Virus record (IMG/VR): IMGVR_UViG_3300027759_000505
Coordinates: 1-21,086 of that record
Source of the DNA: a virus
Length of the DNA: 21,086 nt
Strand: one strand, 5' to 3'
Shown here: positions 3,411 through 7,040 of the stretch, one piece after another
Numbering within the stretch: the stretch's first letter is position 1
How the letters are laid out: every line of letters begins with the position of its first letter
Translations under genes and position numbers: made by a program
Notes under the pieces: generated by a model
Database searches by the model: none
The model's input: the letters and a program-made list of their open reading frames with translations, nothing else
What the model was told of the DNA's origin: nothing

Positions 3411-4265
3411 CTATTGTTGGACTATATAGTCGCCTTGATATCCACTTACTGCATCGTTTCTTAGCATAACACCCCACGCATTTTTATCCGATATCTGACA
3501 AGCAGCGTAGTTAACAAACAGTGTTACGTAATCCTTGCCATCTGCAGCGTGTGGCCCAAAGCGGTTCTTTACCGCAGCTACCTTGAGTTCACCATTGGAT
3601 GGGTCATAGCCCAGCGTTAGGATCAGCGCTGGTAGTTGACTCACCTTGCCGTGAATGGCACGTCTAGCAGGTGGATTAGATGGTGATCCGTACTCACTCT
3701 GCTCAGATACGTGGTGTAGCACAAGTACGCAGGCTTCAGTCTTACGTGCCATATCGTGCAGCTCCATCATTATCGCACGCAAGCCAGCCCACTCATTGTC
3801 AGTCTCTGCTGCTACGTTCATTAAGTTGTCTATAACAATTAACTCTGGAGCCTTGCCATAAAGTTCTACATATGCCCTGATCTCTAACTCGATATCGTCC
3901 AGTGATGGCGATGAATCAAAGACCCATTTAATATGTTCTAGTTTTCCAAAGTGCTTATCGTAGTAGTTCTTATCCTTAGATAAGTTTAGCTCCACCGATA
4001 CCTGCGAGTGACCAGAGGCAACAGATGCTGCTCTCATCATCACAGTTGTAGTATCGGTATCTGCTGAGAAGAAGAGCGTTGATACATTTGCTTTCATCGC
4101 ATAGACAAGAGCAAACATAGACTTACCAGCGTTAGGGGCCGCAGCTACCATACATACTTGTCCTCGCCGGAACTTAATATGCTTTAGCGATAGCCCCTGC
4201 CACACGTCAGGTAGTGGTGTTGCCTTGGTAAGCACCCCACTCCAAGCACGTGATAAGTCAAGCAA
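3411..4265 (-). CDS. DnaB/RecA-fold ATPase, probable replicative helicase
   Basis: This 284-residue protein is a RecA-core ATPase. Its Walker A is AAPNAGKS (residues 42-49; the usual first Gly is Ala), and Walker B is in ELIVIDNL with D146. A sensor-like VLVLHHVSEQ segment and a DnaB-like C-terminal motif AAVKNRFGP follow. It matches the C-terminal domain of DnaB-type helicases but lacks an N-terminal primase-binding domain. It is therefore either a minimal helicase or a related RepA/Rad55-like ATPase. It starts with TTG at 4265, 6 nt after a GGGGG SD and overlapping the WhiB stop. The split primase genes downstream support a replication role. Confidence 0.78.
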   Translation of the reverse strand: MLDLSRAWSGVLTKATPLPDVWQGLSLKHIKFRRGQVCMVAAAPNAGKSMFALVYAMKANVSTLFFSADTDTTTVMMRAASVASGHSQVSVELNLSKDKNYYDKHFGKLEHIKWVFDSSPSLDDIELEIRAYVELYGKAPELIVIDNLMNVAAETDNEWAGLRAIMMELHDMARKTEACVLVLHHVSEQSEYGSPSNPPARRAIHGKVSQLPALILTLGYDPSNGELKVAAVKNRFGPHAADGKDYVTLFVNYAACQISDKNAWGVMLRNDAVSGYQGDYIVQQ

Positions 4266-4524
4266 CGCCTTCCCCCTTTAATGTTATACGTCGTTTACGT
4301 CGAACTAATCTGCGTTGACCTTCATTCAGGCCACCCCATATGCCAAAGGTTTCATTCTGTATCCCCCACTCAGCACACTCTGCTTTATGTGGACATCTTC
4401 TACAGATAGATCTGGCCATAGCAACTTCAGCTGTGTTGTTATTTGCAGTTTCATTTTTAGGAAACCAGAAGTCACCACCGACTGAAGCGCAAGCAGGGTT
4501 CTCATAGAACCTTGGCTCGCGCAC
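4258..4524 (-). CDS. WhiB-family Fe-S regulator
   Basis: This 88-residue protein has the four WhiB cysteines (C12, C41, C44, C50; the last three as C-x2-C-x5-C), the GIWGG turn (61-65) and a basic tail (RRLVRRKRR) for DNA contact. WhiB proteins hold a 4Fe-4S cluster, bind the principal sigma factor and modulate promoter choice. A phage copy may redirect host transcription or affect superinfection. It begins with GTG, 3 bases after the preceding stop and without a good SD, so it probably depends on coupling. This is the strongest single marker of an actinobacterial host. Confidence 0.92.
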   Translation of the reverse strand: MREPRFYENPACASVGGDFWFPKNETANNNTAEVAMARSICRRCPHKAECAEWGIQNETFGIWGGLNEGQRRLVRRKRRITLKGEGVA

Positions 4525-4902: not shown

Positions 4903-5859
4903 TTATTTTCCTCCGCTAGGTTTGATGTTTAGTCTTGCAGTTTCCTCACCTACACTTACTGGGACAAAACCAATAAGTTCTTTTACTTTTTCTTTGTCAA
5001 CTGTCTCACGACCCTTAACCTTTGTCCAACTGATTTCAATACCACTAGCAGTAACGCCAATGGTTCCCTCGAAAGAAGACTTGATTGAATCTCTTTCAGT
5101 TTCCAGATCTTTTATCTTACGATCTAATTGTAGAAAGTGCAGAGCGTTCTTGTCAATCTGCTCGTCCTCAATGATTACTTCACTCAGGACGATACGTTCT
5201 TTTTTTAAGCCAACACAACCCATCATTCCTGATGCGTCGTAGTACTGGCAGTAGTGCTTACAGAATGACTCATCCTTCTCAGGTTCTGGAGCTGACTCCA
5301 TACCCTTGATCTCAGTCAACCATTCCATAGCCTCTAGTGCAATATCTTCATCGTAAGGTTCTGAGTGAACCTTGACATCCTTCTCGGCACCATCACGAGC
5401 TATAGCGACTAGGTTGACAGTGTTGACTGTGTGACCATTCTGCGATAGCAGATAGCCATAGATCTGCACCTGCCAACGCTGCTGCTTTGATGGGAAGTAA
5501 GATAGGTTCTTTACCTTGCTTGTCTTCCAGTCAATGACTGCGCCGGTGCTAGGTATAAATAGATCCACGTGTGCTTTCATATCACCGTGTGCTACTGCAG
5601 TTTCAACTAAGTAATCTTTACCATCTGGATCTAGGTGACCGATAGCCTCTTCGATTGCAGCGTGGATAGCAGTACCCATAATTGCAGCCAGCTTTGATTG
5701 GTTATCGTTAGTCTCAGGCTGTGCATTTAATCGGTACCACACCTTACGACGGCAGCCACCTATCTCTGATGGACCTACTTGTGTCTGAGTACTACGATCA
5801 CGAGAGGCATCCTTTGCGTGGAGTACCGATAGCAGTAGTTCTTTCGGGTCTGTAATCAT
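4903..5859 (-). CDS. Cas4/RecB-like PD-(D/E)XK exonuclease
   Basis: This 318-residue protein has the RecB-nuclease motifs in order: GPSEIGGCRRKVWY (29-42), GTAIHAAIE (62-70, His66), D99 in AHVDLF, D110-W-K112, and the QVQIYGY helix (130-136). C36 together with C200, C204 and C215 matches the Cas4/AddB layout for an Fe-S cluster. The C-terminal 100 residues form a helical extension (coiled coil at about 235-260) and a small beta region. It probably resects DNA ends for recombination or degrades host DNA. No Cas1, Cas2 or CRISPR repeats are nearby, so adaptation is unlikely. Confidence 0.82.
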   Translation of the reverse strand: MITDPKELLLSVLHAKDASRDRSTQTQVGPSEIGGCRRKVWYRLNAQPETNDNQSKLAAIMGTAIHAAIEEAIGHLDPDGKDYLVETAVAHGDMKAHVDLFIPSTGAVIDWKTSKVKNLSYFPSKQQRWQVQIYGYLLSQNGHTVNTVNLVAIARDGAEKDVKVHSEPYDEDIALEAMEWLTEIKGMESAPEPEKDESFCKHYCQYYDASGMMGCVGLKKERIVLSEVIIEDEQIDKNALHFLQLDRKIKDLETERDSIKSSFEGTIGVTASGIEISWTKVKGRETVDKEKVKELIGFVPVSVGEETARLNIKPSGGK

Positions 5860-6017
5860 TGCGGGTTCCTTACGATAAATGCAGCACCTGGATAGTTGGC
5901 TGCTTCTAACTGTTGTGCAATCTGCTCACGCAGTTCTATCTCCATAAACACTGGTGCTGCTGATCTTCGACCAGAAGCTATTGCTTCTTCTAGTGCATAC
6001 TGCAGTGTCTTTTCCAT
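5856..6017 (-). CDS. small hypothetical protein
   Basis: This 53-residue protein is helical for most of its length (EKTLQYALEEAIAS, then MEIELREQIAQQLEAA) and ends in NYPGAAFIVRNPQ. It is joined to its neighbours by TAATG (upstream) and ATGA (downstream) overlaps, which supports its being translated. No family was recognised. Confidence 0.6.
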   Translation of the reverse strand: MEKTLQYALEEAIASGRRSAAPVFMEIELREQIAQQLEAANYPGAAFIVRNPQ

Positions 6018-6107: not shown

Positions 6108-6662
6108 TTATCCTTTCTCTTGAGTAACTAATTGAATCGGAGGACAGGTATTGACGTCAAGCACCGACGCGATCTTTATTGCGCGTTCTGCTACCACCTT
6201 AGACATCAGCAGAGACTTATACGATCCTGGCTTGAGCGAGTAGAGATAACCCAAGGCAAATGCTCCACCGCTACCGGCTGCAAAGAGTCCACGCTCACTA
6301 GCGTTGAATGATAGATCTGATCCGATAGAAAATAACATCCCATCAAAGGCGATGAGGTAGGCAAAGCTGGCTTCCTTATCGGTTGGATCGTATCCATTAT
6401 CCTTAAAGGCAGTGTAGATACTTGGCAGTATCTTCTTGCCCATCCACTCGACAGGGTCGTAACCCTTATACGTTGGTGGTTTCCAATTAAAGGCGAGGAT
6501 ATCTCCAGGTCGTGAGTCGCCCGTGATACCTATCAGGTAGCTCCCAACGTGAACGATCTTCGGAGTCTGCGTAGATATGATGCGCTGATCGTTATCGGTG
6601 ATCTGACTATCGGAGGCTAGCACTACAAAATCAGGTCCTTGGATACCTATCAGAGTTGTCAT
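6108..6662 (-). CDS. HslV/proteasome-beta-like Ntn hydrolase
   Basis: This 184-residue protein begins MTTLIGIQ. Counting Thr2 as mature Thr1, the catalytic set of T1 peptidases is present: Thr1, D17 in LASDSQ, a lysine at 34 (TPKIV), the GSGG loop (130-133 with Met counted), and D168 near the C terminus. Removal of Met would expose the nucleophilic threonine directly, as in HslV; there is no propeptide. The length is close to HslV and shorter than actinobacterial PrcB. The frame is open further upstream, but the ATG at 6662 is chosen because it gives the exposed threonine and lies 7 nt from an extended -10. It may degrade host or phage proteins, or it may be a non-proteolytic relative. No unfoldase gene is seen nearby. 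Confidence 0.8.
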   Translation of the reverse strand: MTTLIGIQGPDFVVLASDSQITDNDQRIISTQTPKIVHVGSYLIGITGDSRPGDILAFNWKPPTYKGYDPVEWMGKKILPSIYTAFKDNGYDPTDKEASFAYLIAFDGMLFSIGSDLSFNASERGLFAAGSGGAFALGYLYSLKPGSYKSLLMSKVVAERAIKIASVLDVNTCPPIQLVTQEKG

Positions 6663-6669
6663 ATGGCAG

Positions 6670-6698
6670 ATCATACCACTGCGTGTCGCAAGACACAC
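6670..6698 (-). promoter_or_regulatory. extended -10 promoter of the early minus-strand operon
   Basis: Read on the minus strand, TGGTATGAT (6678 to 6670) is a good extended -10 (TGn plus TATGAT), without a recognisable -35 at about 6693-6698. Only 7 nt separate it from the ATG at 6662, so the mRNA should start at or just before the A of ATG. No SD is present. Confidence 0.6.
6683..6696. promoter_or_regulatory. inverted repeat between divergent promoters (operator candidate)
   Basis: GTGTC-GCAA-GACAC is a perfect 5-bp inverted repeat with a 4-base centre. It overlaps the -35 positions of both the minus-strand promoter and the candidate plus-strand promoter. A dimeric regulator bound here could control both. 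The arms are short, so chance is possible. Confidence 0.4.
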
Positions 6699-6785: not shown

Positions 6786-7040
6786 ATGTTGCTCCGTCTA
6801 CTCTCCCTGCAGAAATTCATAGGCAGGAACAAGACCTACAATGGCCTTCCTAAGCCCTTTGGAGCCGATCTCAGGGGTTTAGGACCCGTCCACGCGTGTA
6901 CCTGTGGATGCACTGTCTTCAACATTATGGCAGCCTTTGAGGACTACGACATAGCTTGGTGGCATCTCGACGGAACCTGCGCTAACTGCGGAAACTTGGT
7001 AACAATTCCCTGCCCTGTAGACAATCCAGAAGGACTCTGA
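6786..7040 (+). CDS. zinc-ribbon protein, the only plus-strand gene
   Basis: This 84-residue protein has cysteines C38, C40 and C42 (HACTCGCTVF) and a second set C65-x2-C68 and C76 (GTCANCGNLVTIPCP), spaced like a zinc ribbon, with an aromatic beta-hairpin between them (EDYDIAWWHLDG). I recall similar short proteins in actinophages, of unknown role. The SD AGGGAGG sits 9 nt before the ATG. Its isolated position and opposite strand suggest a separate expression time from both minus-strand operons, perhaps a regulator; that is inference. Confidence 0.75.
   Translation: MLLRLLSLQKFIGRNKTYNGLPKPFGADLRGLGPVHACTCGCTVFNIMAAFEDYDIAWWHLDGTCANCGNLVTIPCPVDNPEGL

Follow-up and report, generated by a model that had tools for sequence, protein, structure and literature searches.

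The window, a 21,086-nucleotide stretch of viral DNA covering IMG/VR record IMGVR_UViG_3300027759_000505 from position 1, encodes a 184-residue proteasome-like protein on its minus strand, from an ATG at 6662 to a stop at 6108 (Table 1). The initial annotation had placed the gene at the same coordinates and given no strand; we assign it to the minus strand. A gene on the plus strand was ruled out because that strand is full of stops there. The start was set at ATG 6662 and not at TTG 6719 because Thr-Thr comes immediately after the start codon in 157 relatives. At least 570 viral stretches in IMG/VR, mostly from syntenic freshwater actinophages, encode a relative. This and the invariance of residues T1, D17, K33, G47 and D166 in 127 of 127 distinct homologues put the ORF far beyond chance. 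An artefact or chance ORF is ruled out by the invariant catalytic residues, the dN/dS ratio and the conserved gene order.

Table 1 Features of the protease locus (positions in the window)
Feature	Position	Strand	Remarks
Proteasome-like (T1 family) Ntn hydrolase gene, mature N-terminal Thr predicted after Met removal	6108..6662	-	ATG start; Pfam, PHROG, profile, structure model
Thr1 codon (nucleophile), immediately 3' of start codon	6657..6659	-	Thr-Thr after start in 157/157 relatives
-10 box TATGAT, 7 nt before ATG; TGG just upstream (extended -10)	6670..6675	-	TANNNT conserved in relatives
Palindrome GTGTC-N4-GACAC, overlapping the -35 region	6683..6696		single copy in window
Divergent gene for 84-aa Cys-rich (zinc-ribbon-like) protein, sharing the intergenic region with the protease gene	6786..7040	+	adjacent in nearly all relatives
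53-aa ORF, next in operon	5856..6017	-	in some relatives only
Cas4-like/PD-(D/E)XK exonuclease gene, conserved downstream operon partner	4903..5859	-	Pfam, PHROG, synteny
WhiB-like transcription factor gene, actinobacterial host marker, same operon	4258..4524	-	
DnaB-like helicase gene, downstream in operon, followed by RusA-like, primase and sigma-factor genes	3411..4265	-	

Gene order, promoter and palindrome

Starting from the lysis genes, the order at the locus is divergent 84-aa gene, protease gene, 53-aa ORF (where present), Cas4-like exonuclease, gp49-like, WhiB, DnaB-like helicase, RusA-like and primase genes. Nearly all of about 150 IMG/VR loci share this order; in L131 and L139 the protease gene lies instead between those for helicase and primase. 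The divergent 84-aa protein contains CxC and CxxC pairs and has no Pfam or PHROG match. The gene had been described initially as first in the early operon. Both synteny and a conserved promoter argue for this leading position, while its early timing is something we infer from operon position and promoter. Several distant phage relatives lie near ThyX/TS, RNR, PhoH or deformylase genes, neighbourhoods typical of early or middle modules. In Vibrio phages (L168 4283-5528; L211 2498-4531) a peptide deformylase gene is located two or three genes before the Ntn hydrolase gene; removal of the formyl group is required before Thr1 can be exposed. In Aeromonas phage 2L372X, two neighbouring genes are annotated as 'peptidase HslV family' (L170 4959-5510 and the next gene).

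A TANNNT box, mostly as TGA-TATGAT, stands 6-7 nt before the ATG in 83 of 110 distinct genes that start with this codon, against a background of 5.7%. A -10 box at this distance implies that the protease mRNA is expected to be leaderless. Upstream of the box, a GTGTC-N(0-14)-GACAC palindrome, most commonly with N4, was found within 150 bp of the gene in 89 of 125 loci, compared with 8 copies elsewhere in 936 kb. Seven of these outside copies were listed individually, and three of them (L043, L044 and L098) correspond to the protease-gene site itself, which an inserted gene has moved 460-500 bp further upstream. The palindrome is probably an operator. What is new here is the position of the protease gene, first in the replication operon, and its upstream signals: a conserved -10 box, with a predicted leaderless mRNA, and a gene-specific palindrome.

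The inserted gene encodes an Endonuclease VII-like protein (PF02945, E 8e-22) and lies between the predicted leaderless promoter and the protease start in L043 (742-1212) and L078 (4567-5013). The same insertion occurs in L044, L045 and L098, and probably in L028/L091. As a consequence of its position, the promoter would now drive the endonuclease gene. The protease start codon in the insertion loci reads ATA or ATC and follows a Shine-Dalgarno-like sequence. The insertion has the appearance of a mobile endonuclease gene directed at the start of the protease gene.

Family, fold and catalytic residues

The protein matches the Pfam family Proteasome (PF00227, E 1e-6) and, over residues 1-182 and hence its full length, the phrog_1040 family 'peptidase HslV family' (E 9.5e-22). 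A profile made from 11 homologues and compared with PDB sequences retrieved HslV (5e-8) and the beta-proteobacterial proteasome homologue BPH (9e-7). Matches to HslV and archaeal beta models in NCBIfam were all sub-threshold. A true HslV was ruled out, since the HslV equivalog scores of 24.4 bits (TIGR03692) and 25.5 (NF003964) are under the curated cut-offs of 157.75 and 137. The AlphaFold2 model (pLDDT 87.6, pTM 0.84) gave BPH, HslV and 20S beta as top Foldseek matches, the best being BPH (PDB 5ovs, 5ovu; E 6e-11, TM 0.77). With VIA-align, the model superposed on known chains with Z 19.7-21.1 over 165-172 residues; here a 20S beta chain was best (Z 21.1, rmsd 2.4, 168 aligned) and BPH reached Z 19.7-19.8. 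The modelled protein thus has the proteasome-beta fold of T1 peptidases. Support for the active-site geometry that the initial annotation had named as a test (Thr2, Asp18 and Lys35 not lying apart) comes from the alignment of model residues 2-184 onto chain residues 1-181. Helices are modelled at 50-58 and 70-88, and a Pro-Pro loop between the first two helices is conserved. No match to PADLOC defence families was obtained for the protease. Taken together, Pfam, PHROGs, profile search and AlphaFold2/Foldseek identify the protein as a genuine T1-type (proteasome/HslV-like) Ntn hydrolase. This agrees with the initial annotation, which had called it HslV/proteasome-beta-like and suggested structure prediction and profile comparison as a check; both lead to a T1-type Ntn fold.

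The catalytic set of T1 peptidases (Thr1, Asp17, Lys33, Gly47 and distal Ser129/Asp166) is complete in the family. Position 129, the one that varies, is Ser in 119 and Thr in 8 of the 127 distinct sequences. In mature numbering the window protein has Thr1, Asp17, Lys34 (equivalent to Lys33), Gly47, a G-S-G-G loop and the distal Asp, and all these positions align with HslV, BPH and 20S beta. The residues singled out initially (Thr1, Asp17, Lys34, the GSGG loop and the distal Asp) were therefore correctly recognised, as was the Met directly before the Thr, a place taken by the start codon in all 157 relatives. Start codons vary among relatives (ATG, GTG, TTG and apparently ATC and ATA) and Thr follows every time, a pattern that points to selection for an unblocked N-terminal Thr, produced by deformylation and Met removal from a protein without propeptide. 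The median dN/dS was 0.096 over 220 pairs, indicating purifying selection. Given the invariant residues, the start directly before Thr-Thr and this low ratio, loss of the Met alone very probably suffices to give an active enzyme, as judged from sequence.

Distribution, host and related systems

As far as sequence tells, the active site is always complete in the clade to which the window protein belongs, and among freshwater viral contigs members of the clade are very frequent. In the tree, the window protein falls into a freshwater phage clade (support 99/97), apart from the homologue of Planktophila phages E7/F5 and from the Vibrio/Aeromonas 'MTC' type; resolution is weak at the deep branchings between phage lineages. 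The E7/F5 homologue (27% identity) is encoded directly after the portal gene (L165 7500-8036) and forms its own lineage. About 20 window proteins have homologues in E7/F5, among them the helicase (44%), the primase (41%) and an M15-like lysis protein (66%). Phages that are related in other respects carry different lineages of the gene at different sites, which points to independent acquisition or to replacement. The WhiB, glycosyltransferase and sigma-factor genes of the window fit the description of E7/F5 (PMC10202952). Because of these three genes and the approximately 20 shared with E7/F5, the host is probably 'Ca. Nanopelagicales' or near kin, freshwater Actinobacteria that are abundant in lakes. 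We estimate the phage genome at roughly 40 kb and found no near-identical phage record. The glycosyltransferase gene (PF00534; 16047-17108) is located amid structural genes, as described for freshwater G2/G3 actinophages. Near the portal gene, both E7 and a relative of the window encode a giant protein of 1600-1760 aa without Pfam or PHROG match (L165 8727-14021; L162 11518-16365), possibly an internal virion protein.

The initial annotation considered such a protease unusual for a phage. This view does not hold: the protein is a member of phrog_1040, which is also matched by proteins of DSL-LC01, E7, Pumpernickel, Vibrio and D'Alembert; relatives occur in Vibrio, Aeromonas, Microbacterium and Planktophila phages, and phage homologues were described in 2021 (PMC8665760). 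In that study, Fuchs, Alva and Lupas reported the phage-borne group I homologues PPH and AAH (OC.661151), for which they gave neither an AAA+ partner nor a function, and found no Actinobacteria-specific phages with AAH (PMC8665760). Both PPH and AAH share the catalytic set of the window protein and have no AAA+ partner. However, PPH is about 140 aa long and lacks helix H2, whereas the window protein has 184 aa with two helices modelled there, so it is not of the PPH type. BPH, for which a double ring of heptamers is characteristic, resembles the window protein in having no propeptide and no known partner unfoldase (PMC8665760), although identity is only about 21-23% and BPH-like bacterial sequences lie outside the phage branch of the tree. 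HslV (ClpQ) has the same fold and catalytic set but forms its own clade (100/99), and no HslU was found in long relatives of the window. A protein of Citromicrobium phage RXM is annotated as BPH (PMC8953757), and an HslV without HslU has been noted in a Salmonella jumbo phage (PMC7823757). Phage proteasome homologues are thus a known, catalogued family; the new elements are an abundant freshwater phage group within it and the promoter anatomy. The idea of a host or bacterial gene was rejected, as two scans of genome contigs returned a single relative, from a gammaproteobacterial MAG (30% identity).

The observation that the window encodes no unfoldase was confirmed, and relatives yielded none either: among 12 that are 34-42 kb long none had an AAA domain scoring over the cut-off, and none of 14 had such an AAA_2 domain, although these contigs may be incomplete. 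Each of the 12 long relatives has exactly one copy of the proteasome-like gene, and consequently no alpha-type partner was seen.

Possible roles in infection

We found no tested phage proteasome homologue in the literature beyond annotations, and no candidate substrate. We give about even chances to an early, self-sufficient, BPH-like T1 peptidase of the phrog_1040 branch that degrades unfolded or host proteins. The protease would be made early, from the first gene of the replication operon; host deformylase and Met-aminopeptidase would expose Thr1, and the subunits would come together by themselves in a BPH/HslV-like compartment. Proteins of the host (or phage) that are unfolded or accessible would then be broken down without a dedicated unfoldase, which may help takeover of the cell or remove interfering host factors.

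Other roles are conceivable. The initial annotation proposed that the protease might mature phage proteins, and cleavage of scaffold or capsid proteins during head assembly would be one form of this. The E7/F5 homologue does lie in the usual place of a prohead protease, in the head module directly after portal, and the head proteins of a near-complete relative of the window include no other recognisable protease. However, the E7/F5 gene is of a different lineage, and in the window lineage the protease heads the replication operon, away from portal and capsid genes, with several distant relatives in nucleotide-metabolism modules. In addition, the capsid protein (PF13252 / phrog_1357) aligns with its family over almost its entire length and has no long extension at the N-terminus; a small scaffold-like protein is encoded by a gene of its own. 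Head maturation is therefore disfavoured, and we regard it as quite improbable. Cooperation with a host AAA+ ATPase, or co-assembly with host 20S/PrcB that diverts host proteolysis, would fit phages without a recognised AAA or AAA_2 unfoldase and a catalytic fold that, as modelled, resembles HslV and 20S beta. We consider it unlikely, as Fuchs et al. saw no AAA+ partner that accompanies such homologues and suggested unfoldase-free action for BPH (PMC8665760), and phage genomes contain one proteasome-like match each. Our literature search returned nothing on the proteasome content of the host.

Some proteasome homologues are not proteases at all: connectase is a specific, monomeric peptide ligase (PMC8665760). 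A highly specific processing protease or connectase-like ligase, perhaps monomeric and with one or few host or phage targets, might accordingly be envisaged, and the conserved Pro-Pro loop would be in line with such a role. Yet connectase lacks the first helix pair (PMC8665760), which the window protein has in its model, and there is little likelihood of this role either. The self-sufficient early peptidase is the reading we retain. In its most specific form, a self-assembling, unfoldase-free viral proteasome would be among the first products of a widespread group of freshwater actinophages, made from a leaderless, operator-controlled mRNA, and would clear host regulators or defence proteins. 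The separate E7/F5 lineage at another site would then mean that this function was acquired more than once; we advance this version only tentatively and think it rather doubtful.

Phage proteasome homologues have been catalogued without an assigned function. A relative of the clade occurs in a cultured pair, Planktophila LanE-43 and phages E7/F5, which opens the question to experiment. Should the protein serve early takeover, it would represent a compartmental protease of viral origin at work in a bacterial cell.
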